This document shows, in pieces, positions 47,423 to 62,221 of a stretch of DNA of 64,000 nucleotides. Source of the stretch: Galbibacter orientalis DSM 19592. GTDB lineage: Bacteria > Bacteroidota > Bacteroidia > Flavobacteriales > Flavobacteriaceae. A model generated the notes under the pieces. That model was not told where the DNA came from. It worked only from the letters and a program-made list of their open reading frames with translations, and did not search any database. The first letter of the stretch is position 1. Each line of letters starts with the position of its first letter. The translations under genes and the position numbers were made by a program. The stretch lies in assembly GCF_000260115.1 (NCBI RefSeq), contig NZ_JH651379.1, forward strand, positions 1,740,501 through 1,804,500, in the 5' to 3' direction.

Positions 47423-47531
47423 TCATATTTAGCTTATTTTTTTGTAATTTTAAGTGTAGAGATTAAAATTTTATAAAAATATATACAGTAACAACAGTTT
47501 ATCATAACTGTTCGTTTTTTGATTGATGAAT

Positions 47532-47560
47532 AAACTCCGGCTGATTACCGGAGTTTTTTT
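47532..47560 (+). terminator. Rho-independent terminator after rpoD
   Basis: AAACTCCGG / CCGGAGTTT stem, 7-nt loop, followed by a seven-T run. Confidence 0.93.
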
Positions 47561-47562
47561 GT

Positions 47563-48083
47563 TGGAAAAGGTTGGGAGTCGGAAGATTAAGATTTAAAGA
47601 TTGAAAGATTGAAGGATGGAAGTCGGGAGACCGAAGTCGGGAGATTTTATTTATTTCACAAATCCACATTTCCAAATCTTCAAATTAGCACATATACAAC
47701 TTTGCCTCTTTGAACCTTTGCACCTTTGCATCTTCGAGTTAAAAAGTTATGTTGTTATAAAGTTACGATGTTACGATGAAAAAACTGCCAACTGAATACT
47801 TATTAGCTTCCGACTTCGGTCTTCGGACTTCCGACTTTTTTTCTCATATTTACAACTTTGCCTCTCTGAATCTTTGAACCTTTGTCACTTTGAGTTGAAA
47901 GTAAAAAGTTATGTTGTTATGAAGTTACGATGTTACGATGAAAAAAACTGCATACTGTAACTGCCAACTGAATACTTCCGTCTTCGGTCTTCGGACTTCC
48001 GACTTTTTTCTCACATATACAACTTTGCCTCTCTGCACCTTTGAACCTTTGCCCCTTCAACTAAAAAAACTACATACTCAGTA
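47563..48083 (+). repeat. Mosaic intergenic repeat block R2
   Basis: It fills the space between the convergent rpoD and FemAB-like genes. Words in order: GATTGAAAGATTGAAGGA, GTCGGGAGACCGAAGTCGGG, ATTTTATTTATTTCACAAAT, CAAATCTTCAAATTAGCACA, the CTTTGCACC series, AAGTTACGATGTTACGATG, CTTCGGTCTTCGGACTTCCG; then a second round. The first 150 bp are close to a perfect inverted match of 34470-34620 in block R1. No coding frame. Confidence 0.9.
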
Positions 48084-49184
48084 CTAAGAAGTACTCATTT
48101 CTTGTAACCTAAACAAATCGTAGGCTTTTTGATTGAAAGGATAATCCCAACATCCCATTCTATGAAATAAATCGCCTCCAAACCCTTTTTTATAAACATG
48201 AACTCCTCTTAGTGGGTGCGAATCGTTTAAATTGGGAGCAGAACCAAACATATCGTATTCCGTACATCCCCAGTCTTTAGCTACTTTTATAGATTCCCAT
48301 TGTAGGGCATAACTCGCCAATTTGTTATGTGTAGAAGAAGCGCCATAGAGGTAATTCCCACGTTTATTAGACAAAACCAAAAACATAGAAGCTAGAAATT
48401 CCCCATCTTGGTGTGCCATTAACATCTTTACATTCACCCCATTTTTATGGTTGTCTTGATTGGTTAAAATACGTTTAAAATAATCTTCATTCTGTAATGC
48501 CATATTATGGCGTTTCGAAGTTTCTAAATACAATGCATACCAATTGCTAATATGCTCCACACCATATTCCTGCACTTCAATTCCCTTTTTATTGGCTTGT
48601 CGGATGTTATAGCGGGTATTATAGCGCATATTATATAGGAGCGTTTCTTTTTTTTGCTGAAGGTCTAAAAAGAAAGTATTCTTAGGAAGCACGTCACTCG
48701 GACTCTTACGGAGGTTCCATTCCGAAGTTTTGTAATTTACTCTAAATTCCTGAATTCTACTTTGTGGTGGCCCATTCCAATTTCCCGAAGCATCAAAATA
48801 TTCTTCTTCCTTAGCCCATTGGTTTTCCCAAATTAAATCGTAACGGATAAACATACAATTCTCTGGTAGATGTGGTTTTATAGTCTCTGAAAGTTCTTCT
48901 AAAAACACCCCCTGATTCTCAATAGTAGGTTCCAATTTAGGGCCATAAGGTACATAGGCGTAGCAAAAACTATCATTAATATATTTTATAAGCACCAATA
49001 AATCGTCTTGAGTTTTTGAGAGTCCGCTAGTTGAGGTTCCTAAAATATCTTTAGAAATAGTAACTTCAAACCCATTAGGAATAAATCCCTGTTGGTCTTT
49101 TAACCTTCCCCAATACGGTGTTTGAGGTAAAATATTTGTTGGTTTGATATCTTCAATCTCCTTTTTCGCTACAGTACAAATCAT
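48084..49184 (-). CDS. FemAB-like aminoacyltransferase / peptidoglycan bridge enzyme family protein
   Basis: 366 residues with tandem GNAT-type halves. Markers are TPYWGRLKDQQGFIPNGF at the N-terminus, YVPYGPKLEP, the N-half end RKSPSDVLPKNTFFLDLQQ, the FemX-like RYNTRYNIRQANKKGIEVQE (about 190-210) and, in the second half, LLYLETSKRHNM-type and YLYGASSTHNKLASYALQWE, followed by YDMFGSAP. The KxTRYNI/NIRxAxKxG motif is characteristic of FemX/FemAB. Bacteroidota do not usually have Gly bridges, so the substrate is uncertain. Its stop runs directly into repeat words of block R2. Confidence 0.85.
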   Translation of the reverse strand: MICTVAKKEIEDIKPTNILPQTPYWGRLKDQQGFIPNGFEVTISKDILGTSTSGLSKTQDDLLVLIKYINDSFCYAYVPYGPKLEPTIENQGVFLEELSETIKPHLPENCMFIRYDLIWENQWAKEEEYFDASGNWNGPPQSRIQEFRVNYKTSEWNLRKSPSDVLPKNTFFLDLQQKKETLLYNMRYNTRYNIRQANKKGIEVQEYGVEHISNWYALYLETSKRHNMALQNEDYFKRILTNQDNHKNGVNVKMLMAHQDGEFLASMFLVLSNKRGNYLYGASSTHNKLASYALQWESIKVAKDWGCTEYDMFGSAPNLNDSHPLRGVHVYKKGFGGDLFHRMGCWDYPFNQKAYDLFRLQEMSTS

Positions 49185-49257
49185 CCAAAAAAATTTCGTG
49201 CAAAACTAAAAAAAGTGTTTGGAGTATTAAAATTATAAGCAAATGTTTTTGAGTTGA

Positions 49258-49680
49258 AAATTAGTTAGTTAGGGGGTGGAAGAAGTCGGGAGTCCGAAGA
49301 CGGAAGATTAAGATTTAAGAATTTAAAAATTTAAAGATTGAAAAAGTCGGAAGTCCGAAGTCAGGAGACGGAAAATTAAAAAATTCGACAATTGACACAA
49401 TAACAACTTTGCCTCTCTGCACCTTTGCATCTTTGAGTTAAAAAACTATGCTGTTATGAAGTTACGATGTTACGATAAAAAAAACTACACACTGTAACTG
49501 CCAACTGAACACTTCTGTCTTCCGACTTCCGACTTTTTTTTCACATTTCCAAATCTTCAAATTAGCACATTTACAACTTTGCTTCTCTGCACCTTTGAAT
49601 CTTTGCATCTTTTATGTTGAAAGTAAAAAAGTAAAAAGTTTTGTTGTTATGAAGTTACGATGTTACGATGAAAAAACTGC
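49258..49680 (+). repeat. Mosaic intergenic repeat block R3
   Basis: About 420 bp with the same words as R2 and in the same orientation: GGGAGTCCGAAGACGGAAGA, the CTTTGCATCTTTGAG series, GAAGTTACGATGTTACGATA, CACTGTAACTGCCAACTGAA and CTTCCGACTTCCGAC, twice over. The right edge reaches into the next gene's 3' end. Confidence 0.88.
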
Positions 49681-50235
49681 CTACTGTTTACATCCGACTT
49701 CGGACTCTAAGATTGCGTATTCGTAATTGTCAGACCAGCCTGATTTAAGGGGTAATACTTGTCTACGATGTCCTTCTCTTATCATGCCTACTTTTTCTAA
49801 AACTTTAATAGAACCAATATTGTTGATTGCACAACCTGCTTCTATTCGATGTAATTTAAGAGTTTTAAATCCGAAGTTTATTACAGCTTTTAAAGATTCA
49901 GAAGCGTATCCTTTCTTCCAATAATTGGAATGTATTTTATACCAAACTTCTGCTCTTTTATATTTTGTACTCCCAAGTTTAAGTCCAAATAAACCAATAA
50001 AATCTCCATTAGAAATAAGATCAATTGCAAAAGTGTAATTCTTTATTTCAGGTAATTGATTGTTCGTAATCCAAGGTTCAATTATGGATTTGGTTTCTTC
50101 AATATTTTCGGGAATCCCCAACGCATTGTATTCATCTGTTTCTGGTAGGGAATGTAAATTATGGATTGACTCTAAATCTGTTAATTCAATCAATCTTAAT
50201 TTTAATCTATCAGTAGATATTTCAGTTCGATTCAT
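49681..50235 (-). CDS. GNAT acetyltransferase (RimJ/RimL-like)
   Basis: 184 residues with the RimL-type fold: RLKLRLIELTDLESIHNLHS, then EVWYKIHSNYWKKGYASESL (acetyl-CoA-binding strand and loop), FKTLKLHRIEAGCAINNIGS and IKVLEKVGMIREGHRRQ. The last seven codons (SEVGCKQ) and stop are encoded by a repeat word (GAGTCCGAAGTCGGATG...), so block R3 has replaced the original C-terminus. Substrate is unknown; ribosomal-protein N-acetylation is the classical role of relatives. Confidence 0.85.
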   Translation of the reverse strand: MNRTEISTDRLKLRLIELTDLESIHNLHSLPETDEYNALGIPENIEETKSIIEPWITNNQLPEIKNYTFAIDLISNGDFIGLFGLKLGSTKYKRAEVWYKIHSNYWKKGYASESLKAVINFGFKTLKLHRIEAGCAINNIGSIKVLEKVGMIREGHRRQVLPLKSGWSDNYEYAILESEVGCKQ

Positions 50236-50466
50236 TTTTTTACTAAACTCCTAATTTAGGAAATAAAAACTGAATATACAGTCTATTATGGATTTAGGGG
50301 CTAGCGGAGAGCAACCAATTCCTTGTAGTTAACAATTCTAGCACATTTTCAATTCATCTTTATAATTTAACATAAAAATTTAAAATTTAACGACCTTGAG
50401 AAAAGTACCTAAATCTATATGACTTCAGATATTCGCGCTATTTTTATAACATTGTAAGCAGTTTTT

Positions 50467-51291
50467 CTACATCGCTGTAACTGAGTTCGCTAATCTTTTT
50501 TCATTTCCAATTAGGGTTGTGTAATAACGTTGTTCAATCCCATATAATAATTGTTTAAGATTTTCTTCTGTTCCAATTGTAAAGCATTCATCATCATCTG
50601 AAAACTCCAATTCATCACAATATTCCTTAATATAACCATATATTGAATTTCTTTGTGTAGGATTGAAATTATTAAAGGTGTCTATCGCCATTGCAATTCT
50701 TTTTCTATTCGCTTTTTTAACTTTTGTAGCATCATAATCACCCACGAGGTTTATAAAATTATTTTCCAAAAAAGTTTCTGTGTCAGCTTGCGTTGCCTCC
50801 CTGTAAAGTTCTTCGATACCCGTAAATATAGTTGTGATAGATGTCAATTTTTTGAAATACAATATGTCATCAGTTTTGTCATAAATAGCATCGGCTATAT
50901 CCTTAATTACGATAATTGGATTTTCTGAATGTAGTTCGGGTTCGTTGTTTAATGGAAACCATTTTCTATTTATAGTTTGACTTTTCGATAATTTTTGAAA
51001 AAAGTAATACCTGTTATTCTGATAGGAACATAGATAACTTAACTTTGAATAGTCTGCATTAACGATTTGATTGTATTCTGCTGAATTGAAATCTTTTGTT
51101 AAGAAATCTATTATATAATCTGTTTCAGAAAATCCGCCAATTGCAAACCATTCATCATCTTCTAATTTGTAATCGGTATCATATTCATGAGGATTGTCTA
51201 AATCATAAGGTAAATCAAATACATTTTCATCAGACATTATTTTAATAAATTGTCCGTTCTGTCGTGATTTTTTTGCAAGTAAATGGTTCAT
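50467..51291 (-). CDS. kwaB: KwaB-like protein (DUF4868), Kiwa-type anti-phage system
   Basis: 274 residues, cytoplasmic. Resemblance to the DUF4868/KwaB family lies mainly in the C-terminal half: DILYFKKLTSITTIFTGIEE (inner core strand and helix), VKKANRKRIAMAIDTFNNF, YCDELEFSDDDECFTIGTEE and LLYGIEQRYYTTLIGNEKR. It starts 2 nt after a four-helix membrane protein, which is the kwaA-kwaB arrangement. Family knowledge: KwaA sits in the inner membrane and KwaB binds DNA; together they sense infection at the membrane and block phage late expression or replication. The family call is from remembered pattern, not a search. Confidence 0.65.
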   Translation of the reverse strand: MNHLLAKKSRQNGQFIKIMSDENVFDLPYDLDNPHEYDTDYKLEDDEWFAIGGFSETDYIIDFLTKDFNSAEYNQIVNADYSKLSYLCSYQNNRYYFFQKLSKSQTINRKWFPLNNEPELHSENPIIVIKDIADAIYDKTDDILYFKKLTSITTIFTGIEELYREATQADTETFLENNFINLVGDYDATKVKKANRKRIAMAIDTFNNFNPTQRNSIYGYIKEYCDELEFSDDDECFTIGTEENLKQLLYGIEQRYYTTLIGNEKRLANSVTAM

Positions 51292-51293
51292 AG

Positions 51294-51833
51294 TTATTTG
51301 GTTAAATCTATAAATGTAAAATCGTTAATTCTTCTTAACTGTTCAAATTCCGTATTCTTTGGATCTTTTAAAATTCTGCGGGTAATAATGAAAATCTTTA
51401 TTTCATTCGTGGTTGTCAAATAGTAGAAATGATACTTGAATATTAAAAAAAGCGGATTAAAATACAATGTTTGAGATAAAAATGTAAAAACAAACAGAAT
51501 TGCAAATACAAAAATCAATGTATCAACATATGGTACGCTTAATGCAACAAAGAAGTACCCTAAATAACTGGGCAAAAAAGCATTATTAGCTTGCTCAATA
51601 CTTTTTATCGTTCCTAAAGAGATATTGTCTTTGCTTAAAAATTTCGCAATTAGAAGGCTTATAAAAGTTAAGAAAATTGGGATTAGAAAATACAGAACAT
51701 AGGAAACGTAATTAGGAAGTCCAAACAGGTAGCAATTCAAATTATTAAGCAGAACTTCTACTTTCACGAGATATACTACAATGATTAAAGATGTTGCGTT
51801 GAAAGTCAATAAAAGCCTATAAATAAAATTCAT
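51294..51833 (-). CDS. kwaA: KwaA-like four-helix membrane protein
   Basis: 179 residues with four predicted transmembrane helices: LLTFNATSLIIVVYLV (with a short re-entrant stretch), YVSYVLYFLIPIFLTFISLL, FLPSYLGYFFVALSV and TLIFVFAILFVFTFLSQTL. A charged cytoplasmic tail (ITRRILKDPKNTEFEQLRR) follows. Size, topology and 2-nt linkage to the DUF4868 gene fit KwaA. Sequence similarity within KwaA is low, so context carries the call. A TATATTTG box lies 41 nt upstream. Confidence 0.6.
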   Translation of the reverse strand: MNFIYRLLLTFNATSLIIVVYLVKVEVLLNNLNCYLFGLPNYVSYVLYFLIPIFLTFISLLIAKFLSKDNISLGTIKSIEQANNAFLPSYLGYFFVALSVPYVDTLIFVFAILFVFTFLSQTLYFNPLFLIFKYHFYYLTTTNEIKIFIITRRILKDPKNTEFEQLRRINDFTFIDLTK

Positions 51834-51873
51834 TTTTTATGTTTATTGGTTTGGTTAAATTGCTTACAACTCT

Positions 51874-51881
51874 CAAATATA
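51874..51881 (-). promoter_or_regulatory. -7 box (TATATTTG) for the KwaA-like gene
   Basis: TAnnTTTG match on the minus strand, inside a leader whose sequence (TTTGATG ... TTTGAGA) resembles the leader of the upstream nuclease gene. Confidence 0.55.
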
Positions 51882-51906
51882 ACCAATCATCAAAGAATCA
51901 CTTTGT

Positions 51907-51932
51907 GGAATTACTCATTTACAGCAGCTTAA
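51907..51932. repeat. Direct repeat, downstream copy, flanking the nuclease gene
   Basis: GGAATT-CTCATTTACA-CAG-TTAA matches 53879-53904 at 23 of 26 positions. It abuts the nuclease stop codon exactly (stop at 51933-51935 on the minus strand). Confidence 0.7.
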
Positions 51933-53777
51933 TTATTTACTTAATGCTTTTATTATTCTTTCTTCATTAATTACAATATCTCTAAATAATACATGTGGAA
52001 ATTCTTGATATTTAGAATCTTTAAATGTTTCGAATATTTTGGAAAGCGTAGAGGCCGTTAAAAGTGATAAATTCATTTCAGTATCCATTTCGCAATCATA
52101 AACAAAGTCATCACTAAATTCAGGGGCAATAAGTAAGATTTTAACAATTCTTAGATTGTTTTTCAAGGCTAAGTTTTGATATGATTTTAATTGTCTCGAA
52201 ACTGTACTAAACTTATTATATCCTTTTTCTTTTATTGTTTTACATTCAACAATAATTATTTCATCATTACCTAAATTCAAAAGTATATCCATGATATCCT
52301 TTTTTGTATTCAATTGACTTTTAAATTTATCATCAACATGAAACCCTAAGCCTTTAAATATAACTTTTGTAAGTTCCTCAAATTTTAATCCTAATTCACT
52401 TTCTTTTACAGTTATTCCATTCTCTTTTAATAGATTTAAATTTCTATAGCCAACATTAGCATAGTTCTCGAGATATAAATTTTCAACATCTTTATAATGA
52501 TCAAGGATGTTTAATATATCATCTCCACGTTGTTTAATTCCATTATCTTTAACGAATTTGGAAAGATTTGGCTTTGTTATTAAATCTAAGATGTCTCTAG
52601 GTTTTATATTGTAGTCAAGTAAATAATCTGCGCTCAGAACAAATTCATCTTGTAACTCAAATTGTTCTTTTAGTTCTTTGTTAAGTGTGGGAATTGAAAC
52701 ATTGAGTTCTGAAAGCATTTTATCAAAACCGTCTATTGAGATACCAACTTTCTCATCTTTTTCGATAGTTTCGAAATGAGTTATTAAACTTTTAATTTTA
52801 TCCTCTAGTGTACTTCCCTTTAAATTGGGAATATTTAGTCCTTTCTCACAAAGTTCATTGAGCGTTTTTTTCTTCTCGGTAAGATTAGTTCCTTCTTTAT
52901 ATATTTCATTTGTAAGTAAATCTGTGAAAGAAATCCCTACTTTAATTATTTGTTCTATTTTTTGTGAATGAGTTAATTTTCTTTCAATGTTATGCTCTTT
53001 AGCAATTTGATTGATTATAGGCTCCCTTAATAATTTTAGTGTTCTTCTATAAAACTTCTCTGCTACTTCTTTTTCCCTAACCTTTCTTAAAAGTCTAACC
53101 ATCTCGTCCGCAACCAAAATTGTATTTTCCTTTTTTGAGTAGAATACAACGCCAAGATTCTTTAAATTGTTAATAACATCTAGAATATCTGCTTTCTTGA
53201 TGGGAAGAATGGAATAGTTAATTAACTTGATTTCTTCTTGCGAAAGACCTAACTGTTTTGATAAAGTCAATATTATAGATAATTCATCAGAGGTAATTTT
53301 TGCATCCCTATTATTTGTAATATCATTAGTGTATGCAGTAGATAAACACGCTTTATATATGCGATAATCTCTTTTTCTAGTATCACTTAATTCCGATTTC
53401 TCCTTTTCTAATTCTGATATAAGGTTCTTTGTCTTAACTTTTAAGTTTTTGATTTCGATTTCATATAATCTAGAAAACCAATCTTGTTTCATTAAGCAAT
53501 TTCCATCTCGAATTATAATATCAATTAAGATGTCTAATTGAGAATTAGCTTCTTGGAATTCAGACTTAAGATGCTCTGTGAATTCTGATGAGATTAAGCT
53601 AAATATATTTGATACATTTTGATTATCAACAGATTTAAGCCCCTTGTCGGATGAACTTAAAATTTTATCAATCTCTTTTGAGTTTTTAGGGTTCTTAGAA
53701 ATAATATGATCAATGATTTTTATAAAAGAGTTCTTTTCAATAGAACCAAGTTTATCAAGTATCTTTTCCAGTTTCAT
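51933..53777 (-). CDS. Helical protein with C-terminal PD-(D/E)XK (restriction-endonuclease-like) domain
   Basis: 614 residues without a signal peptide. The N-terminal 460 residues are Lys/Glu/Leu-rich and helical (coiled-coil-like around 130-170, VKTKNLISELEKEKSELSD). The C-terminal domain fits a PD-(D/E)XK fold: Glu467 region in KFEELTKVIFKGLGF, Asp494/Asp497 in DIMDILLNLG and Glu511-Cys-Lys513 in IIIVECKTIKEKG, then the Gln-containing helix SRQLKSYQNLALKNN. These carry the expected catalytic order. It is upstream of, and codirectional with, the KwaA/KwaB-like pair and is bracketed by direct repeats. The role is likely nucleic-acid defence; target and modification dependence are unknown. 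Confidence 0.7.
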   Translation of the reverse strand: MKLEKILDKLGSIEKNSFIKIIDHIISKNPKNSKEIDKILSSSDKGLKSVDNQNVSNIFSLISSEFTEHLKSEFQEANSQLDILIDIIIRDGNCLMKQDWFSRLYEIEIKNLKVKTKNLISELEKEKSELSDTRKRDYRIYKACLSTAYTNDITNNRDAKITSDELSIILTLSKQLGLSQEEIKLINYSILPIKKADILDVINNLKNLGVVFYSKKENTILVADEMVRLLRKVREKEVAEKFYRRTLKLLREPIINQIAKEHNIERKLTHSQKIEQIIKVGISFTDLLTNEIYKEGTNLTEKKKTLNELCEKGLNIPNLKGSTLEDKIKSLITHFETIEKDEKVGISIDGFDKMLSELNVSIPTLNKELKEQFELQDEFVLSADYLLDYNIKPRDILDLITKPNLSKFVKDNGIKQRGDDILNILDHYKDVENLYLENYANVGYRNLNLLKENGITVKESELGLKFEELTKVIFKGLGFHVDDKFKSQLNTKKDIMDILLNLGNDEIIIVECKTIKEKGYNKFSTVSRQLKSYQNLALKNNLRIVKILLIAPEFSDDFVYDCEMDTEMNLSLLTASTLSKIFETFKDSKYQEFPHVLFRDIVINEERIIKALSK

Positions 53778-53845
53778 AAGTTTCTATTTATAACTTCATC
53801 AAAGGATTAACAACAAATAATATATAGGATATGCTTTTGTTTTCT

Positions 53846-53853
53846 CAAACTTA
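53846..53853 (-). promoter_or_regulatory. -7 box (TAAGTTTG) for the nuclease gene
   Basis: TAnnTTTG match on the minus strand, 69 nt before the ATG, followed by GAGA as at the KwaA box. Confidence 0.5.
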
Positions 53854-53878
53854 TACATTCAAATAATGGAAGCCTTAC

Positions 53879-53904
53879 GGAATTCCTCATTTACAACAGA
53901 TTAA
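53879..53904. repeat. Direct repeat, upstream copy, flanking the nuclease gene
   Basis: Partner of 51907-51932, 1972 bp away, same orientation. Between the copies lie only the nuclease gene and its own leader. Confidence 0.7.
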
Positions 53905-53974
53905 AGAAATAAATAGTCCTCAAACACTTATAGAATGATACTTTAGCGCTATAGGGGGTATTTTCCCTTTTTTG

Positions 53975-54215
53975 TTGGAAGTGGAAAAGTCGGGAGACGG
54001 AAGATTAAGATTGAAAGATTGAAGGATTGAAAGAAGTTGGGAGTCAGAAACTAATAAGAATAAAGAGCATAGAATAGATTTTGCATTCTTGACTCTTGAT
54101 TCCTGATTCTTTGATTGAAAATGTACGCCTACTGAACTGAACACTGCATTCTGTCTTTCGACTTCAGACTTTTTTCTCACATTTCCAAATCTTCAAATTA
54201 GCACATTTAGCATAC
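53975..54215 (+). repeat. Mosaic intergenic repeat block R4
   Basis: Short block with GTCGGGAGACGGAAGATTAA, GATTGAAGGATTGAAAG, GACTCTTGATTCCTGATTCT, GAAAATGTACGCC, TGAACTGAACACTGCATTCT and CAAATCTTCAAATTAGCACA. It lacks the CTTTGCACC and GTTACGATG words of R2/R3. Confidence 0.85.
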
Positions 54216-54238
54216 TAAAACTCCATTTAGGTCAAAAG

Positions 54239-54349
54239 ATGTCCCGTTTGGGTGTTTTAATGATGTTTATGGTTAAAAGATATATAATTAGTAGTGTTGC
54301 AATCATAATTTTAATTAATGTGTTTATAATTTTAGTCGTTTTGCCTTAA
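54239..54349 (+). CDS. Possible 36-residue small membrane protein
   Basis: ATG at 54239 to TAA at 54347-54349 gives MSRLGVLMMFMVKRYIISSV followed by a 16-residue hydrophobic run (AIIILINVFIILVVLP): a positively charged start and one transmembrane segment. This is the shape of small hydrophobic toxins or membrane peptides. No promoter or homologue is evident, and an AT-rich chance frame is a real alternative. The rest of 54350-54556 has no gene. Confidence 0.25.
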   Translation: MSRLGVLMMFMVKRYIISSVAIIILINVFIILVVLP

Positions 54350-54556
54350 ATTATGGGTGCGAGCCTCCAAATTATAGTTATCGGACTTAAAAGCATCTTT
54401 AAAACACGCAAACGGGATATTAAATAACCGTATCGCATCTATCTTTAATCCTAGCAGCTTATTAGCATGCTTAAACAGTGTTATGGAGGACTTGAATTCT
54501 TTAAGTTAAACCCTAAACTTTTAGGGATAATACCTAAAAAATTAGGGAGACAACTC

Positions 54557-54602
54557 AAAAAAATAAGCATGTCCCCTAATAATATAGAAGTACATGCTTA
54601 TT
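54557..54602 (-). terminator. Terminator for the minus-strand gene at 54630
   Basis: On the minus strand AATAAGCATGT / ACATGCTTATT (11 bp, perfect) is followed by a T-run; it lies 28 nt beyond the stop. Confidence 0.8.
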
Positions 54603-54629
54603 GTATGGATTCCGTGTTATAAAATCAGA

Positions 54630-55106
54630 CTATGAGCTGGAATCGGGGTCTTGTGTTTTTTTAGTTCTTGGGAAAAACTGCTTTAAATCGGCCACTTTCT
54701 CTGTGAATCCGTTTGCGCCAGCACCTTTTTTATATTGTGCATGACTATAATCTAACAGGGCATCATGGTAATTATCGTAATCATGCAGCGTTTTGGTACT
54801 TTCCATTTGGTATGCTATACTTTTAAGTCGCTCTAAAGTACTTTCCAAAAATTCACGCGACTCAAAATCGCTTTTAAATTCTACCCAATCCACATCGGCA
54901 GTGCTAAGAGTAGGGGAGCGTTTGTAATAATCGTAAATCTTATTTACTAATAATTTATTTTGCTCGTTAATAGAACCATATTTAATACGTTCCTCTTCAG
55001 TAAGTGCTATTAATTTGTCTTTAATAAGGTCTTCTAATTGTCCAACTGCTGTGCTAATAGCTGTTACATCCTCCGGACTTAAATTTGAACTAATTACATT
55101 TCTCAT
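54630..55106 (-). CDS. Helical cytoplasmic protein of unknown function
   Basis: 158 residues, no signal peptide, mostly helix: MRNVISSNLSPEDVTAISTA, VGQLEDLIKDKLIALTEEER, KLLVNKIYDYYKRSPTL and FLESTLERLKSIAYQ. A hydrophilic Lys/Asp/Ser C-terminus (RTKKTQDPDSSS) ends it. I do not recognise a named family. It is monocistronic with its own terminator and lies between two repeat blocks, suggesting an accessory gene. Confidence 0.65.
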   Translation of the reverse strand: MRNVISSNLSPEDVTAISTAVGQLEDLIKDKLIALTEEERIKYGSINEQNKLLVNKIYDYYKRSPTLSTADVDWVEFKSDFESREFLESTLERLKSIAYQMESTKTLHDYDNYHDALLDYSHAQYKKGAGANGFTEKVADLKQFFPRTKKTQDPDSSS

Positions 55107-55209
55107 TATTCTTCGTTTTATGATTAATCTAATAAATGTATAGCTTTAATTCTATAATCAGTTCAACAAGTGCGTTTTTAATTTCTATTTTATAGAAAAT
55201 AAGTTTACA

Positions 55210-55609
55210 TAAAAAGAAGTCGGAAGGTTAAGATTTTAAAATTGAAAGATTGAAGGATTGAAAGATTGAAAAAGTCCGAAGTCGGGAGTTGGAAGGAAGC
55301 AAGAATAAAGAGCATAGAATAGATTTTTGCATTCTTGACTCTTGATTCTTGACTCTTGATTGAAAAGAGAGAAGTTGGAAGTCTGAAGCCCGAAGTAAAA
55401 AGTTACGCTGTTATGGAGTTACGCTGTTACAAAGAAAAAAACTGCTTATTGAACATTGAACACTGCATCTGTCTTCAGACTTCGGACTTCCGACTTTTTT
55501 CTCACAATCACAACTTTGCTTCTCTGCACCTTTGAACCTTTAAGCTGAAAGTAAAATGTTATGCTGTTATGAAGTTACGATGTTGCGATGAAAAAAAACT
55601 GCCTACTGC
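55210..55609 (+). repeat. Mosaic intergenic repeat block R5
   Basis: About 400 bp with GAAGTCGGAAGGTTAAGAT, GATTGAAAGATTGAAGGATT, GACTCTTGATTCTTGACTCT, GTTATGGAGTTACGCTG, GAACATTGAACACTGCAT, CTTCAGACTTCGGACTTCCG, the CTTTGCTTCTCTGCACC word and GAAGTTACGATGTTGCGATG. It combines words from R3 and R4. It ends at the stop of the next gene. Confidence 0.88.
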
Positions 55610-55903
55610 CTAACTACTTTTTAATTTCTTCATGAACTTTTGAATTTCTGGGGAGAGCTCAGAAAAAAGTTCATTCTTTCTATTTTTAAGCATTACTTCT
55701 GTAAAGAGTTTTAGACCGATAGCAAATTCTATAGATTGATTCTCGTTTTCAAATAGATTTTTCTCTTTTATAAGCTCTATAATATGAAAGACTTCGTCAT
55801 GATTTTCAAATTCTATTTCCAAGGATTTATCCTGTTTTTTATCATCATTGGTTGTTTGAAGCTGAGTTAGTTTTAAAGAATACTTGTTTGTTTTTTTCAT
55901 CAT
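55610..55903 (-). CDS. DUF3861 family protein
   Basis: 97 residues (96 from the second of two adjacent ATGs). The family core is evident: KYSLKLTQLQ, SLEIEFENHDEVFHIIELIK, FAIGLKLFTEVMLKNRKNEL and IQKFMKKLK. DUF3861 proteins are small, soluble and of unknown function; one structure shows an alpha/beta fold. It is monocistronic, with repeat block R5 beginning immediately after its stop (TAG then TTAGGCAGTAGGCAG). Confidence 0.8.
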   Translation of the reverse strand: MMKKTNKYSLKLTQLQTTNDDKKQDKSLEIEFENHDEVFHIIELIKEKNLFENENQSIEFAIGLKLFTEVMLKNRKNELFSELSPEIQKFMKKLKSS

Positions 55904-56083
55904 TTAATCTTTAAACAATTAATGGAGTTTTTGATATCTTTTTAAGAAAATTTAAACGCTTTAATAGATTGTTTATGTACTATTAATTACAAGACTTTAA
56001 CCTTATTTCTTCAAAGATACCCATTTAGTAGGTAATTTCTTATTTCAGATTATTTTTTAGAATAGGAGAGGTGTTTGCTATAA

Positions 56084-56554
56084 TTATTCTTCATTTGCGA
56101 CCCAAGTGTTGGTGGTAAAATCAAACGTAAGAGATAAGGTGTTTCCTACTGAATTATTAACCTTTTCCAATTTATCTACTACTGTATCTTGACCAGATAT
56201 TTTTGTGAGTTTTGTGCTAATTAAGCTTATATTATCGGAAATAGGAGTAATTTTTATTCCTACTACTTTGTATTCTTTTACCATTCTCGAATCAACAGTA
56301 ATGGTTTCATCACAACAATTTATACCAGAATAAGTTAATACTTCTTCCTGTAGCTGGTCTTTCTCATCTGTTGTAATAAAAGTAGCTTCAAATTCATAGG
56401 GTAAATCGGCGCCCGTAGATTCAACATTGAAGGCAAGTTCATAATCATCAAATTGAGATAAATCAACTTCCTTATTTTTATTGATACTATCATCAGAAGA
56501 ACATGAGATTGAAAAAAATAATATGGCTAGAACTAGTAGACTTTTAATTTTCAA
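56084..56554 (-). CDS. Small lipoprotein of unknown function
   Basis: 156 residues with a clear lipoprotein signal (LLVLAILFFSISC, then SSDDSINKNKE, an acidic surface-export-like stretch). The mature part is beta-rich (YELAFNVESTGADLPYEFEA, ETITVDSRMVKEYKVVGIKI, LSLTFDFTTNTWVANEE) and resembles small Ig-like outer-surface proteins. No family is recognised. The Ser/Asp residues right after the Cys fit the Bacteroidota lipoprotein export signal. Confidence 0.7.
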   Translation of the reverse strand: MKIKSLLVLAILFFSISCSSDDSINKNKEVDLSQFDDYELAFNVESTGADLPYEFEATFITTDEKDQLQEEVLTYSGINCCDETITVDSRMVKEYKVVGIKITPISDNISLISTKLTKISGQDTVVDKLEKVNNSVGNTLSLTFDFTTNTWVANEE

Positions 56555-56716
56555 ATTGATTGATTTTTAAATCCCTCGCGGATTTGTCCCGAGGTAGTTA
56601 ATTGAATACTAAATATCGGGATTTTTGAACGAATAGGGAAATAATGTACTATAAACTTTTATTTTTTTCTAAGCTTTTCCCACATTTATCTGTAAGAAAT
56701 ACTCCCGTTATATGGT

Positions 56717-57553
56717 TTATTTTATTATTTTCATTTGTTTTAATGCTGTATAAGTCACCTCTTTTCTAATGCTTGGAAACAGATCCATATTAAACTGTTG
56801 TTTAGGCGCTACATTTGTTGCAAAAAAATAGCTATTGTTTTGAACTTCCACATATCCAACAAACCAACCATTATTGTTTCCATTACTAATAGACCAGCCT
56901 GTTTTACCACTAATTTTATAGTGGTTGTTAGTCTCCATAACTATCATTTGTTTTATAATCGACTCTGTCCGCTTAGAAATAGGGAGTTTAGATTGATAAA
57001 GCCTTTTTAAAAAGTCTATTTGTTCAAACTGATTAATTCGCGATTCTCCTTCTAGCCAGAAAGAATCAATGTTTGTAGCATCAACTTTTATAGCTCCATA
57101 TTCAAATTTCTTTAGATACTCGGACATTCTTTTAGCCCCAATTTCTCTCGCTACTTCTTGATAGCAAGGTACACATGAATAATGAAAAGCCTCTTTGAAA
57201 ATTAAATCTTGCTCCCAGCTTTTAAGAAATCTTTCTTCTCCGTTCCATTCAAAAAGAGTACTATCATTTTCAACAACACCCGTTTCTATTGCTATGATTG
57301 AATTGGGGATTTTGAAGGTAGAAGCTGGTAATTTTCCTTTTTTTGCCCATTTAAAATTATTAGAATAATATTTGTCCTCCTTAAGATCGTAGATTACAAT
57401 AGAACCTTTAATAGCAGCCGAATCGATAATAGTTTGAAATTCTGGAATTATAACCTCACGTTCAGCAGAATTATTATTTGTATTAGAAGATTTCTTCTTA
57501 TCTGTACAAGAAAGAAAGAGGATGAACGCTGATAGAATATAAAGTAATTTCAT
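56717..57553 (-). CDS. Class D (OXA-like) beta-lactamase, lipoprotein
   Basis: 278 residues, lipoprotein signal ending LFLSC. Class D motifs are all present: Ser78-Thr-Phe-Lys81 (LPASTFKIPNS), Ser126-Cys-Val128 (YSCVP), Tyr152-Gly-Ala154 where most OXA enzymes have YGN, Trp166 (FWLEG), and Lys217-Thr-Gly219 (SGKTGWS). Lys81 would be the carboxylated general base. Reaction: hydrolysis of penicillins and possibly other beta-lactams at the periplasmic face. Membrane anchoring and the YGA variant are unusual for acquired OXA enzymes; this looks like a chromosomal flavobacterial type. A C-terminal SIRKEVTYTALKQM helix completes the fold. Confidence 0.88.
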   Translation of the reverse strand: MKLLYILSAFILFLSCTDKKKSSNTNNNSAEREVIIPEFQTIIDSAAIKGSIVIYDLKEDKYYSNNFKWAKKGKLPASTFKIPNSIIAIETGVVENDSTLFEWNGEERFLKSWEQDLIFKEAFHYSCVPCYQEVAREIGAKRMSEYLKKFEYGAIKVDATNIDSFWLEGESRINQFEQIDFLKRLYQSKLPISKRTESIIKQMIVMETNNHYKISGKTGWSISNGNNNGWFVGYVEVQNNSYFFATNVAPKQQFNMDLFPSIRKEVTYTALKQMKIIK

Positions 57554-57620
57554 TTTTTTATAATGGTGATAGGGTTGAAAAATACTGAACCTTAGTTACC
57601 TATTGCTTTACTCGATAATC

Positions 57621-57693
57621 GAAATTTGAATGTTCCAAAGTCTGTCCTGAGTTTACCGAAGTGCTTGCCCCGAGGTAGTTTACTTAATCATTC
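57621..57693 (+). repeat. Short dispersed repeat, second copy (GCTTGCCCCGAGGTAGT)
   Basis: In reverse complement it matches 35153-35190 (AAGTAAACT-CCTCGGGGCAAGC, followed by a TTGGA-CATTC-like word). A decayed relative sits at 56568-56600 (TCCCGAGGTAGTTAA). Confidence 0.7.
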
Positions 57694-57791
57694 CTTTTCA
57701 AAATTAATGAAGAAAAAGGTTTTATACTAGTTATTATAAATTCTTAATTAGCTTTTAGATTTGACGGTCAATTTATTTAAATTATTCCTTT

Positions 57792-59378
57792 TCAAAGTTT
57801 AATTATCCGATTTATATTTATTTGTTCTAAAAGTGTTTCATCGTGCGAGACAATAATCAATGTACCTTGATACTCATTAATTGCAGCTGTTAGAATTTCT
57901 ATATTTTGAAGATCAAGGTTATTCGTAGGCTCATCAAGGATAATTATATCGGGTGATCGATTGCTAATTGTCAAACAACAAATCATTAATCGCATTCTTT
58001 CTCCGCCACTTAAAGCGCTAATAGGTTTGTCCCATTCGTTTTTAGTAAATAAAAATCGGTTGAGTCTTATTTTTATCTCGTGTTCTTGTAAAGTAGACGA
58101 ATTGAATTGTTGAGATTGCTCGAAGACGTTCAATTTATTATCAAGCAAAGAATAATCTTGATCTATATAAACCGAACTATTTTCTGCTCTTTTGATGTTT
58201 CCTAATTGAGTTTCTAGCGTTCCTAAAATCAATTTGATTAGCGTTGTTTTTCCTGAGCCGTTTTTTCCTTTCAGAGCAATGCGTTCACCACTAATTATTT
58301 GGAAATTGAGATCTTTCTCCCAAAGCTTATTTGTATTGTATTTAAAATTGATATTAGTTGCTGTAAACAAAATTTTTCCTTTGTGTAAAGATGAATCTTC
58401 AAAGCCAAATTTCATTTTATCAATATCGGATAATGTTGAACGAAAGTTTTGCAATTCTTTAGAAATACCATCAACTTTTTCAGCATGAATTCCTTTCATT
58501 TTTGAGGTACTATTTTCAGCATTGTTTCGCAAAGTATTCATCATAATTCGGGAAACCCCAGATTTCTCCTGTTTGCCTTTTCCTCGCCTGTCTAACTTTT
58601 GTTGACGCTCCAATGTTTCTCTTTCCTTTTCTTTGGCTTTTTTTAATGCTTTTTCTTTACTCTGAATATTATTACTTAAAGCATTGTTTTCTATCTGTTT
58701 TTGCGCTGTATAAAATTCATAGTTTCCACCATATACTTTAATAGCATTTTTACTTAATTCGGCAACTTTATTTAAAAGGTTTAATAATTTTCTGTCATGG
58801 CTAACAATAACCAAAGTACTTTTTGTAGACTGAATAAAATTATATAAAAGTTGCCTCCCTGTAGCATCTAAATGATTGCTGGGCTCATCGAGTAAAATAA
58901 ATTTTGGTTGATGGATTAGAATACCTGCGAGAAAAACTTTTGTTTTTTGTCCGCCACTTAAAGATTTTATAGGTGATGATATGTTTAAATCACTGATATT
59001 CCAATATTTTAATGCTTCTTTGTAGCGGTCTTCAATTGTCCAATCATCATTCAATATGTTGAAATTTTCTTCAGAAGTATTTCCATTTAAAATTTCTCGA
59101 AAAGCATTTAATTTTTTATGAATCCGTAATGCTTCAGCAATTGTTAAATGATTGTATTGTCCAAAAATCTGAGGAATATAATAAGGCTCGGATTCTATTT
59201 GTAAATGTCCTTCTGCATATTGTAATTCTCCAGCAACTATTTTTAGTAATGTTGATTTTCCTGTTCCGTTGTTACCGATTAAAGCTATCTTTTCTTGGGC
59301 ATTTACTGTGAGATTAATTTCTGAAAACAGCAAATCTTTGTTGGGATGTGTATATGAAAGTTGTTGTATAGTCAACAT
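57792..59378 (-). CDS. ABC-F family ATPase
   Basis: 528 residues with two ABC domains and no membrane segment. Domain 1: Walker A LIGNNGTGKSTLLK, signature SLSGGQKTK, Walker B ILLDEPSNHLD. Linker about 230-310, basic and helical (ALKKAKEKERETLERQQKL, GKGKQEKSGVSRIMMN). Domain 2: LKGKNGSGKTTLIK, ALSGGERMR, IILDEPTNNLD. ABC-F proteins act on the ribosome, either as translation factors or by displacing antibiotics. The long basic linker and proximity to a beta-lactamase make ribosome protection plausible, but substrate specificity cannot be read. Confidence 0.92.
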   Translation of the reverse strand: MLTIQQLSYTHPNKDLLFSEINLTVNAQEKIALIGNNGTGKSTLLKIVAGELQYAEGHLQIESEPYYIPQIFGQYNHLTIAEALRIHKKLNAFREILNGNTSEENFNILNDDWTIEDRYKEALKYWNISDLNISSPIKSLSGGQKTKVFLAGILIHQPKFILLDEPSNHLDATGRQLLYNFIQSTKSTLVIVSHDRKLLNLLNKVAELSKNAIKVYGGNYEFYTAQKQIENNALSNNIQSKEKALKKAKEKERETLERQQKLDRRGKGKQEKSGVSRIMMNTLRNNAENSTSKMKGIHAEKVDGISKELQNFRSTLSDIDKMKFGFEDSSLHKGKILFTATNINFKYNTNKLWEKDLNFQIISGERIALKGKNGSGKTTLIKLILGTLETQLGNIKRAENSSVYIDQDYSLLDNKLNVFEQSQQFNSSTLQEHEIKIRLNRFLFTKNEWDKPISALSGGERMRLMICCLTISNRSPDIIILDEPTNNLDLQNIEILTAAINEYQGTLIIVSHDETLLEQININRIIKL

Positions 59379-59491
59379 AATTTCTTTCTTTAAAGATTAA
59401 ATAATGAAACAAACCGTATTGCAGCTTGTTTTCTTTAAATAGTTTGAAAGAAATTATTTTTCACATATTGTTTTTAATTAAGGCATCAAAT

Positions 59492-59845
59492 TTACAAATT
59501 ATTTTTTTTATAATGCCATTCTCTATCTATTGCAAAATTAAAAACCACAATGTGAGAGTCGTAAGTAGCACTCAGACAAATTGTATAATTAAATGTAGAT
59601 TCATTAGAAATGGAAAGTAGGAGTGTAGTATTGAATTCTCTAATTTTTGCACCTGGATTAGCAAATTCATTTGTAGGAATAAACTGAAAATCTGAATTTA
59701 AAAAGTTGTTTTCAACTTTTACGCTATCTGGACAATTGTTCTATTCAAAATATACAGTTTTGTATGAAATGTCTAAATTACTGATTAGTTGTATTAAACA
59801 TACTATAAGATTCAACTTGTCTAGAAAAGATAGAACTCCTAACAT
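59492..59845 (-). pseudogene. Likely pseudogene: 117-codon frame split by one internal TAG
   Basis: On the minus strand a frame opens at ATG 59845 (MLGVLSFLDKLNLIVCLIQL), meets TAG at 59741-59743, and continues in the same frame as NNCPDSVKVENNFLNSDFQ ... SATYDSHIVVFNFAIDREW to TAA at 59492. The second part reads like real beta-rich protein. Either a nonsense mutation broke a small gene, or a short ORF precedes an unrelated remnant. The rest of 59379-59904 has nothing else I can support. Confidence 0.35.
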
Positions 59846-59904
59846 TTATATAATTTATTAGATACTATGTTTATTAGTTCAACTAAATGAAATGTCAAAA
59901 AATA

Positions 59905-60213
59905 TCATTTTCTTTTTGGTAAAAATTCGTACTCATAAAATGTCTCTCGAACTGGTTTGAAAACTTCTATTTTTTTTGAAATTTTAGATTTAGAAACAAT
60001 TTCTTGAGCAAATTTTTCAAATTCTTCTTTTGATTCCCAAGTAGCATAATTAATTACAGTGCTTTTATCTTCATTGGTAATAATTTGAGAAGATATAAAA
60101 CCAGGGGAAGGACTTACCTCTGTTGCAAAAAAAATCTTAATTAGTGAAATTAGAAATTGAAAATCATCTTTCTGTATTTCGAAACGAACTAGAACGCAAT
60201 ATGTTTTTTTCAT
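59905..60213 (-). CDS. ABM-type (antibiotic biosynthesis monooxygenase-like) ferredoxin-fold protein
   Basis: 102 residues. The pattern CVLVRFEIQKDDFQFLISLI, PSPGFISSQIITNEDKSTVI, NYATWESKEEFEKFAQEIVS fits the dimeric alpha/beta barrel ABM fold, in which the W-x-S-x-E-x-F motif is typical. Members include haem-degrading or quinol monooxygenases and many uncharacterised proteins. No catalytic assignment is possible. It lies 13 nt downstream of a lipoprotein gene and may be co-transcribed. Confidence 0.7.
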   Translation of the reverse strand: MKKTYCVLVRFEIQKDDFQFLISLIKIFFATEVSPSPGFISSQIITNEDKSTVINYATWESKEEFEKFAQEIVSKSKISKKIEVFKPVRETFYEYEFLPKRK

Positions 60214-60226
60214 TGTAATTGCTTTC

Positions 60227-60970
60227 TTAGATGTTATTACTTTTTAATAGAAATCGAGATATTGCATTCTCTTTTATTAAGTCATTTGTATATTTTGTGA
60301 TTGAATCAGAAATTAATTCTGGAGATGCTAGTTGTAAAAATCTTAGTGTTTTGTCTTTTTGAGGAGTAACTAGTACTGTTTTTCCAAAATTCAAATCAAA
60401 AAGTTTTGTGTTTATAATTGCATATGCTGTATTATCTGCTGTTTTAAATGCCAAATAGTCAATTCTGTTATTTTTTGTTTTGAAAAATCCCTGTCCTAGA
60501 TAATCAGGATGATTTCTTGATAAAACAAGGCTCTGGTTGTTGTTGTTGATTGTGTCGGTTAAAACAATTATTTGAAAAAATATTTCATCTTTTTTGTTGT
60601 TTAATCTGTTTTTATTCAGTTCATTTTGCCCAATAAAAAAACTGTTCATTAAGAGTGTTTTGTCTTTTAATTTAAACACTCCCGATTTATTACCCAATCC
60701 TTTAAAGCTTTCCTCTCCTAATAAGCTGTACTTTGGAACTGGATAAGCTCCTAATTCAAATGGGCCGAAATCTCCAATTTCAATCAATTGCTTGTCATTT
60801 TCAAGCATTTCCATATCCCAAGTCATAGAGTCTTTAGTATTGTTTATATGTTTAAGCCTTTTAGTTTTAGACCATTTGTTATTGCTTTTTTCTACTGATT
60901 GGTTTTTAGAACAAGCTATAAGTAAAATTATAAATAGGGAGGTAATAATTCTATTTCGCATAGTTTTCAT
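60227..60970 (-). CDS. Lipoprotein of unknown function
   Basis: 247 residues with a lipoprotein signal (IITSLFIILLIAC, then SKNQSVEKS). The mature part is mixed alpha/beta: WDMEMLENDKQLIEIGDFGP, KGLGNKSGVFKLKDKTLLMN, DEIFFQIIVLTDTI and DYLAFKTADNTAYAIIN. No known family recognised. Adjacent to the ABM gene; upstream is a heptamer tandem repeat within 25 nt of its start, which may affect expression. Confidence 0.65.
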   Translation of the reverse strand: MKTMRNRIITSLFIILLIACSKNQSVEKSNNKWSKTKRLKHINNTKDSMTWDMEMLENDKQLIEIGDFGPFELGAYPVPKYSLLGEESFKGLGNKSGVFKLKDKTLLMNSFFIGQNELNKNRLNNKKDEIFFQIIVLTDTINNNNQSLVLSRNHPDYLGQGFFKTKNNRIDYLAFKTADNTAYAIINTKLFDLNFGKTVLVTPQKDKTLRFLQLASPELISDSITKYTNDLIKENAISRFLLKSNNI

Positions 60971-60993
60971 TTAAAAAGTAATTTTATTTTTTT

Positions 60994-61035
60994 GCCTAAA
61001 GCCTAAAGCCTAAAGCCTAAAGCCTAAAGCCTAAA
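60994..61035 (+). repeat. Heptanucleotide tandem repeat (GCCTAAA)6
   Basis: Six perfect copies of GCCTAAA followed by two partial units (GCCTACT, GCC). It lies between the DUF3037 gene and a lipoprotein start, in the upstream region of the latter. A copy number that is not a multiple of the helical turn could vary by slippage. Confidence 0.95.
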
Positions 61036-61052
61036 GCCTACTGCCTTCATGC

Positions 61053-61439
61053 CTACAACACATACTTCTCAAAAATATCTTGTAAAACTTCTTGAGGGTT
61101 GGCGTTACATAGTCCTGGATGTGGTTTGGAGCTTTGAATAATAGTACTTCTAGAAGCAACTAGCCAACGGAATCTATCGGATATTTCTAACTTTCCAATA
61201 GCACCCCCAGCAGGAGCCCCTTGACAAATAAGTTCCCACGATTTTAGATAATCTTCAAGGAAATTGACATCCAATTCTTCAGAAAAAGCCTTTAATTTAT
61301 TCGTGTCAATATGGTATTTTACTTGTAGGTATTTTTTACTTTTCGAAAAAAGTATGACCCCAACATTAAAGAATTCTTCCCGTTCTACTTTTGGAACAAC
61401 TCTAATAATTGCATATTCATATTTTACTCTATCTTGCAT
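61053..61439 (-). CDS. DUF3037 protein paired with HipA-like kinase
   Basis: 128 residues: YEYAIIRVVPKVEREEFFNV, GVILFSKSKKYLQVKYHIDT, RFRWLVASRSTIIQSSKPHP and a C-terminal helix. These match DUF3037, small proteins encoded next to HipA-like kinases in many bacteria. Its start lies inside the 3' end of the kinase gene (11-nt overlap), indicating translational coupling. A partner or antitoxin-like role is inferred, not shown. Confidence 0.82.
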   Translation of the reverse strand: MQDRVKYEYAIIRVVPKVEREEFFNVGVILFSKSKKYLQVKYHIDTNKLKAFSEELDVNFLEDYLKSWELICQGAPAGGAIGKLEISDRFRWLVASRSTIIQSSKPHPGLCNANPQEVLQDIFEKYVL

Positions 61440-62214
61440 CGTTCGCCTCGTTTACTAATGAATCAATTTTTGAAAGTTTAGTAGTTATAAATTTAATATA
61501 AGCTACTCTCATTTCGTTTGGAGTTAATGTATCAGACTCGCTTAACAACCAGTCTTCAGGAATTAGAGATACAATTTCTTTAATTTTTTCTTCGGTTAAT
61601 AGTTTTTTTATTTCTTCGGATGCTACTTCAAGCATAGTAGCACGCTCCAAAAGTACGTGGTCTTTTATAAGTGGGAAAGTTCTGGTAAGATGATTTTCCC
61701 ATTGTTGCCAATTATGATGAAAATAAAAACTGGCACCATGGTCTATAAGCCACAATTCTTTATTCCAATTTAATAGATTGGTGTTTTTATGAGTACGATC
61801 TATATTGCTAATAATACTGTCCAAAAGCACTATTTTAGAAACTGTCATTTCATCAGAAATAGGAACGAGGGGATCGTAAGTAATAGCGGTAGATAAAAAG
61901 TGAAGTCCCAAATTTAAACCAACACTATATTTTAGTAAGTCTTGAATCTCTTCATCGGGTTCGGTTTTACTAAACGAATCATCAAGATTCATAAAAACTA
62001 GTTCAGGGACTTTTAAGCCAATAGCACGTGCTATTTCTCCACCTAGCAATTCGGCAATGAGGGCTTTTTTTCCCTGCCCTGCGCCTCTAAATTTTAGTAC
62101 ATACAGGAAATCATCATCTGCTTTTACAATAGCAGGAAGCGATCCACCCTCTCGTAAGGGCTTTATGTATTGAAGTACATCTACAGTACGAATTTCAATT
62201 TTACTCATTTTCAA
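61429..62214 (-). CDS. HipA-like kinase (HipA_2 type)
   Basis: 261 residues, shorter than classical HipA (about 430). Kinase-like features are GSLPAIVKADDDFLYVLKFR (Lys-containing ATP-binding part), ALIAELLGGEIARAIGLKVP, VLLDSIISNIDRTHKNTNLL (catalytic Asp-x-x-x-x-Asn region) and LWLIDHGASFYFHHNW (DFG-like DHG). The N-terminal HipA-like subdomain is missing. The start MKMSKIEI has a second ATG at 62208. It is the first gene of a two-gene unit with DUF3037, overlapping by 11 nt, and is preceded by repeat block R6. A role in stress or defence is the family hint. Confidence 0.82.
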   Translation of the reverse strand: MKMSKIEIRTVDVLQYIKPLREGGSLPAIVKADDDFLYVLKFRGAGQGKKALIAELLGGEIARAIGLKVPELVFMNLDDSFSKTEPDEEIQDLLKYSVGLNLGLHFLSTAITYDPLVPISDEMTVSKIVLLDSIISNIDRTHKNTNLLNWNKELWLIDHGASFYFHHNWQQWENHLTRTFPLIKDHVLLERATMLEVASEEIKKLLTEEKIKEIVSLIPEDWLLSESDTLTPNEMRVAYIKFITTKLSKIDSLVNEANDAR

Positions 62215-62221
62215 ATTTACA

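Follow-up and report, generated by a model that had tools for sequence, protein, structure and literature searches.

The window analysed here, a stretch of 64,000 nucleotides (nt) of the Galbibacter orientalis DSM 19592 genome (contig NZ_JH651379.1, positions 1,740,501 to 1,804,500), carries on its minus strand a gene for a 614-amino acid nuclease (51933..53777) followed by the two genes of a Kiwa defence system, kwaA (51294..51833; 179 amino acids) and kwaB (50467..51291; DUF4868-type, 274 amino acids); these positions, and all others unless a locus is named, are those of the window. We regard the nuclease and the Kiwa pair as probably two independent, separately promoted defence modules, co-regulated through a class of accessory-gene promoters and not joined in one protein complex. 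A first-pass annotation had read them as a single combined system. The three open reading frames (ORFs) are as it described them, as are the gaps of 99 nt between the nuclease gene and kwaA and of 2 nt between kwaA and kwaB (direct reading and ORF list). The recurrence of the trio in other genomes had been set beforehand as the refuting test, and it fails in nuclease loci and kwa loci alike. No kwaA or kwaB homolog lies beside the nuclease in any of 78 loci (phmmer, E 1e-3; flanks of up to 6 kb, less on some shorter contigs), and the nuclease lies beside none of 10 other kwa loci (nuclease query, E 1). Since the trio does not recur, we read the nuclease and Kiwa as separate modules, and the combined system that had been proposed is not borne out.

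In such an arrangement the stand-alone nuclease would form a separate barrier that cuts incoming DNA. The two-gene Kiwa operon would constitute the other module, in which infection may be sensed by KwaA at the inner membrane and injected DNA bound, without being cut, by KwaB, as established for other Kiwa systems and carried over to this one by analogy.

The two leaders and the direct repeats

On the minus strand the nuclease leader consists of an inverted repeat, ATGAGGAATTCCGTAA (53875..53890; 9 of the 12 arm bases, right arm perfect), 21 nt of spacer and a full -7 box, TAAGTTTG (53846..53853). The kwaA leader has the same order and spacing, with a degenerate counterpart of the inverted repeat, ATGAGTAATTCCACAA (51903..51918; 6 of 12 arm bases), 21 nt before its -7 box TATATTTG (51874..51881). 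The assignment of ATGAGTAATTCCACAA was made through homology with the nuclease leader, its own score not being the ground. Overlapping both inverted repeats is the 26-bp direct repeat that had been reported around the nuclease, and which we recover with 23 of 26 positions identical: copy 1 (51907..51932, minus strand) lies between the nuclease stop codon and kwaA, beginning at the base directly after the stop codon (offset 0), and copy 2 (53879..53904, minus strand) lies upstream of the nuclease. The TAnnTTTG box claimed for both leaders is likewise present, as TAnnTTTGAGA at the same offset of 51 nt from the repeat start, each repeat copy sitting 25 nt before it.

An ungapped alignment of the two leaders gives identities of 23/26 in the repeat, 10/25 in the spacer, 9/11 in TAnnTTTGAGA and 10/37 beyond the box (repeat versus spacer, Fisher p 0.0004). 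Because the repeat and the -7 box agree at an identical distance and the spacer at 10/25, it is the spacing between them that has been kept and not the spacer sequence. Searched with up to 3 mismatches, the two-copy consensus has no further occurrence in the window (0 in 100 shuffles) or in the rest of the genome, and the repeat is absent within 400 nt upstream and 600 nt downstream of the 78 other nucleases (best, 9 mismatches; some contigs or fragments being shorter). Transposon ends or a target duplication were considered for the repeats and rejected, there being no transposase ORF in the unit and no such repeat beside other copies of the nuclease. Judged from their sequence, the direct repeats look like homologous promoter-upstream elements that hold most of an inverted repeat, and they fit related promoter-upstream DNA better than the insertion scars of a mobile element. 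The second copy may have arisen by duplication of the kwa promoter, or the nuclease may have come with its own promoter; kwaA may have lost control by the factor that would bind the inverted repeat, or may never have had it.

The promoter form in relatives, family genomes and viruses

The form TTACGG-N4-CCGTAA-N21-TAnnTTTG was first noticed by eye in the leaders of nuclease relatives and then tested on independent sequence. In a set of 74 leaders (72 relatives and the two of the window) a palindrome of at least 10/12 occurs in 17, all of them relatives, against 0.45 expected per shuffle set, and in 8 of the 17 TAnnTTT follows exactly 21 nt on. Across 149 genomes of the family, the exact form with a gap of 20–22 nt gave 49 sites in 34 genomes (reversed control, 0). 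With the gap widened to 5–35 nt there were 52 sites (reversed control, 1), distributed as 46 at 21 nt, 1 at 20, 2 at 22 and 3 elsewhere; some sites are near-copies within one genome (G069, G131), so that not all are independent. When 47 were re-read, 45 lay outside ORFs of at least 80 amino acids and 40 had a co-directed ORF start within 250 nt. The central two bases of the site are A or T in nearly every case. In IMG/VR the exact form was found in 90 stretches, compared with 2 and 2 for two anagram palindromes, and the gap is 21 nt in 63 of 81 sites among the 80 viral loci listed, several of which are near-identical prophages. By eye, the form repeatedly precedes XRE-type repressor-like genes and short secreted proteins in prophage-like contigs (L213–L292).

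Downstream of the family sites, 241 PADLOC families were matched among 140 proteins, compared with 23 among 121 control proteins; such figures count matched families and not proteins, and indicate enrichment without measuring it. Inspection by eye together with searches revealed a TerB-type gene cluster downstream of the site at six loci (L137, L142, L147, L166, L173, L175) and a tubulin-like cluster at four (L140, L148, L151, L174); the latter encodes a lipoprotein and a large partner along with the tubulin-like protein. A TerY/kinase set follows the site at L143, and type I restriction genes are found at sites in L138 (facing strand), L143 and L172.

Promoter sites in the G. orientalis genome

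In the genome of G. orientalis a search allowing up to 3 mismatches returned 14 matches at 13 places, one palindrome being caught from both strands; an anagram pattern returned 5, each inside an ORF. PADLOC matched 7 of the 10 nearby proteins scanned. This set was of our own choosing: a small first ORF was skipped in L094 and L096 and a 67-amino acid XRE-like ORF in L098, the ORF scanned in L097 overlaps the site, and L102 and L104, with sites inside ORFs, were left out. With scores read toward the gene and families taken from PADLOC, the site and a full -7 box at a gap of 21 nt precede a type I methyltransferase [5e-87; site 12/12, a 121-amino acid ORF between], a type IIG protein [3e-89; 11/12, a 135-amino acid ORF between] and a type II methyltransferase [2e-71; 10/12, a 67-amino acid ORF between]. 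Boxes with 5 of the 6 -7 bases precede Cas9 [6e-33; 9/12, gap 21, TATATTTA], pAgo [6e-203; 11/12, gap 20, TAGGTTTA] and LmuA [4e-33; 11/12, gap 20, TAATTTTA]. In one genome the association with defence is illustrated by individual cases, of which, the nuclease aside, three are clean and three weaker; in other genomes it is shown by coarse counts.

At the cas9 locus (L099, ~1500–1575) the palindrome has a TAnnTTT box 21 nt off on both sides, TATATTTA toward cas9 and TATATTTG away from it, and could serve two divergent promoters; it is 14/16 identical to the nuclease site only on the strand facing away from cas9. PDC-S31 was rejected as a site-led gene, since no -7 box lies toward it and its start is 594 nt off; the exact promoter nearby leads a gene for a 255-amino acid lipoprotein instead.

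The nuclease

The PD-(D/E)XK character claimed for the 614-amino acid protein is upheld by a conserved residue pattern, a predicted core and BspD6I and FokI as nearest folds. Glu467, Asp494, Asp497, Glu511 and Lys513 are all present and are invariant in 73 of 73 aligned rows, the window protein included. In the AlphaFold2 model the core (residues 459–574; 52056..52403, minus strand) contains helices at 459–476, 523–539 and 556–564 and strands at 498–503, 506–512, 543–551 and 570–574, and its order is alpha-beta-beta-beta-alpha-beta. The model is weak overall (mean predicted local distance difference test score, pLDDT, 68.5; predicted template modelling score, pTM, 0.37) and confident at the C-terminal end (block pLDDT 83–94 from residue 461 on); the N-terminal ~430 residues are mostly of low or middling confidence, and no DNA-recognition domain was recognised among them. 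The best Foldseek matches were N.BspD6I [2ewf; 1.4e-3], the small subunit of R.BspD6I [2p14; 6e-3] and FokI [2fok; 6.6e-3], at probabilities of 0.97–1.00, and no structural match passed E 1e-3. By sequence there was no significant match in Pfam or NCBIfam, none beyond chance in PDB and none of significance to the PADLOC 2023 defence profiles (best E 0.045). Residues 1–610 match phrog_34709, a viral family of unknown function (E 2e-105). No record of the phage collection has a nuclease of this type, and viral carriage was found on one IMG/VR contig. Taking sequence and model together, the C-terminal PD-(D/E)XK domain most likely cuts incoming DNA, and the mostly helical N-terminal ~430 residues form a probable sensing or DNA-binding part. 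With this protein a very large nuclease fold gains a new, stand-alone member.

A scan of genome contigs produced 78 relatives with 62–91% identity over the best segment, mostly from Flavobacteriaceae and other Bacteroidota, 72 of them with an ORF of more than 600 amino acids. The nuclease occurs in 18 of 299 family genomes, that of G. orientalis included; on plasmids there were only relatives of 34% identity, in 3 Pseudoalteromonas records. Its nearest ORFs on each side (143 proteins, 77 loci, one duplicate dropped) matched 122 PADLOC families, Drt4 and Drt6 among them, and a control set of 121 proteins from other parts of family genomes matched 23. Core sites, which we take to be integron-like, stand at both gene ends in 8 of 72 loci (L007, L009, L010, L013, L019, L023, L027 and L028), upstream in 12 of 72, and downstream in 13 of 72 versus 0.3 expected. 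A Lacinutrix locus (L064) has 6–7 spaced copies of integron-like repeats in 13.8 kb, with genes that by eye resemble toxin-antitoxin genes. The closest relative (L002; 91%) has the full promoter before the nuclease and a second full copy 16 nt past the nuclease stop, before an unrelated gene, an arrangement that matches the window's except for the neighbour. The nuclease gene stands alone, and its neighbours are many and varied.

The Kiwa pair and other kwa loci

That the pair is Kiwa, as had been proposed, was confirmed by PADLOC matches to two genes only 2 nt apart: KwaA matched PDLC00221 over residues 1–178 of 179 (E 1.8e-12) and KwaB matched PDLC00222 over residues 33–271 of 274 (E 6.1e-17). 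Neither protein has a significant model in Pfam or NCBIfam; for KwaB, NCBIfam returned nothing and Pfam nothing better than E 0.03. The description of KwaB as DUF4868-like stands in so far as the PADLOC KwaB model carries it, and Pfam gave no such match. The Kiwa pair itself is of an already known kind. PMC12904381 describes a membrane lattice built from KwaA tetramers and KwaB dimers, with injected DNA bound, but not cut, by KwaB.

Both kwaA and kwaB were present in each of the 10 other kwa loci mapped, a small sample made up of 5 found through genome searches and 5 of 23 matching plasmid-collection records (13 of the 23 being from Apilactobacillus). The PADLOC KwaB model was matched in 2 of 395 genomes of the class, and searches with the KwaB protein found it in 4 of 299 genomes of the family and 2 of 395 of the phylum, the G. 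orientalis genome being counted in each; no kwaB was found in viral contigs. In 4 of the 10 loci kwaAB is embedded in, or adjoins, a type I restriction operon whose subunits were confirmed by PADLOC: hsdM-hsdS-hsdR-kwaA-kwaB (L204:1299-8292), hsdM-hsdS-kwaA-kwaB-hsdR (L091:3073-10324), hsdR-(77-amino acid ORF)-hsdS-kwaA-kwaB-hsdM (L211:1877-9508) and kwaA-kwaB-hsdS (L212:3788-6855). The position of kwaAB among hsdM, hsdS and hsdR varies. These four operons echo the notion of DNA-cutting partners for Kiwa.

At L089 kwaAB stands in a co-directed run behind a tubulin-like gene set, the cluster region being L089:6934-14889. In one genome (G036) kwaA-kwaB forms the co-directed continuation of a tubulin-like gene run headed by the exact TTACGG-N4-CCGTAA promoter, and this is an independent link of Kiwa with the promoter form. 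At L090 kwaA is shortened to 92 amino acids (5880-6158); by eye its start seems to be taken from a response-regulator gene, and it lies just downstream of a same-strand 680-amino acid ORF resembling a sensor kinase. L207 and L210 show no obvious partner of kwaAB, L208 has a type II restriction system ~1.3 kb upstream, and L209 a 1565-amino acid ORF downstream.

Regulation and alternative explanations

The TAnnTTTG -7 box is described as a primary-sigma element of flavobacteria in PMC9723704. In its consensus form the inverted repeat, exactly 21 nt before this Bacteroidota -7 box, would stand in for the -33 box. We take the inverted repeat to be bound by an activator, since its right arm occupies the -33 position and the spacing is fixed. 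Class-II activators of the CRP/FNR kind have this geometry. Tentatively, a host activator of the Flavobacteriaceae acting at TTACGG-N4-CCGTAA, 21 nt before the -7 box, may be the common on-switch of unrelated defence systems and prophage genes; these systems would be restriction of three types, CRISPR-Cas9, pAgo, Lamassu, Ter-like and tubulin-like sets, the nuclease and Kiwa. The factor presumed to bind the site could be captured with TTACGGAATTCCGTAA as bait DNA. It is doubtful that the inverted repeat is instead the operator of a repressor (e.g. XRE or LexA-like) silencing the modules until infection or damage. The occurrence of the form upstream of the XRE-type repressor-like genes in prophage-like contigs, seen by eye, speaks for an operator; a repressor needs no fixed spacing, and the exact 21 nt kept in 46 of 52 cellular and 63 of the 81 viral sites, with the right arm at -33, suits an activator.

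Two other readings concern the origin and the unity of the locus. The repeats might be insertion scars, left when the nuclease entered as a mobile unit through a short homology that was thereby duplicated, the promoter similarity being a by-product. Copy 1 does start at the base after the stop codon, and integron-like core sites bound the gene on both sides in 8 of 72 relatives; yet a search of 400 nt before and 600 nt after the nuclease did not find the repeat at the 78 other loci (some contigs or fragments ending sooner), it does not recur in the genome, and the two copies keep their distance to the -7 box though the spacer has diverged, where simple decay of a duplication predicts otherwise. 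We hold this origin to be unlikely. A genuine three-gene system, in which KwaAB would trap injected DNA at the membrane for the nuclease to cut, with separate promoters setting the stoichiometry, strikes us as quite improbable. A cutting partner would be sensible for a KwaB that binds DNA without cutting it, as PMC12904381 relates, and the type I restriction operons at 4 of 10 kwa loci point the same way; against it stand the absence of kwa genes from all 78 nuclease loci and of the nuclease from all 10 kwa loci, the separate leaders of nuclease and kwaA, and the many unrelated contexts of the nuclease, some of them integron-like.

Several results weigh against the reading that we prefer, i.e. 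two separate modules under a shared class of promoters. The search for a regulator gave three Crp-type domain matches over the cut-off and seven weaker ones, none of these 10 loci has a palindrome of at least 10/12, and no regulator was identified. The nuclease's own site scores only 9/12 and that of kwaA only 6/12. Among 74 shuffled leaders, ~5 reach 9 as their best score within 300 nt. Ahead of the inverted repeat, 14 nt of the direct repeat are unaccounted for, and 55 of 72 relatives' leaders are without a high-scoring palindrome. In the G. orientalis genome the reversed pattern gives 11 matches versus 14, so a count this loose is no proof by itself. Of the 14, two fall within ORFs (404 and 295 amino acids), and those at cas9, pAgo and PDC-S31 were matched on the strand that points away from the defence gene. 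The cas9, pAgo and lmuA sites deviate by one -7 base or a 20-nt gap, and 3 of the scanned downstream proteins match no PADLOC family. In other genomes, the genes behind several sites (L152, L154, L159, L169) are polysaccharide, metabolic or unclassified ones.

Flanking region

In a comparison with two genomes of the same genus (14 kb compared) the common genes stop just past the rpoD sigma-factor gene, and no clean empty site for the nuclease/kwa locus emerges; the side of the window past the sigma-factor gene (47423-64000) looks strain-variable. On this side a 158-amino acid ORF (54630-55106) weakly matches PADLOC DndG (E 4e-4), and an ORF at 56717-57553 resembles, by eye, a class D beta-lactamase relative.

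Comparison with known systems

The nuclease shares with the catalytic domains of FokI and BspD6I the predicted core order and the E...D...ExK residues; it differs in that neither structure at E 1e-3, nor sequence in Pfam, NCBIfam or, beyond chance, PDB, brings a match. As to a separate sequence-recognition domain such as FokI-type IIS enzymes possess, the N-terminal part was modelled at low confidence (overall pTM 0.37). With phrog_34709 it has the same length and is matched over residues 1–610. The Kiwa pair resembles other Kiwa systems in its adjacent kwaA-kwaB genes and near full-length profile matches and differs from them in having its own degenerate promoter behind a nuclease gene, relatives elsewhere lying in type I restriction operons and a tubulin-like gene run.

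If our reading is true and one site does stand before several unrelated defence systems, knocking out a single transcription factor would put much of a bacterium's immune expression to the test, and the promoter site could serve in finding new defence genes. A limited search of the open-licence PMC literature found no description of the promoter form, which does not show its absence from print. A further comparison is with RptR of an E. coli defence island, described in PMC12255303 as a repressor acting on direct repeats with TAGCTA as minimal site. In that island, as proposed here, a small DNA site controls defence promoters; as far as that description goes, RptR differs in that the form found in the window is an inverted repeat, held at a fixed distance from the -7 box and placed before unrelated systems of one genome.

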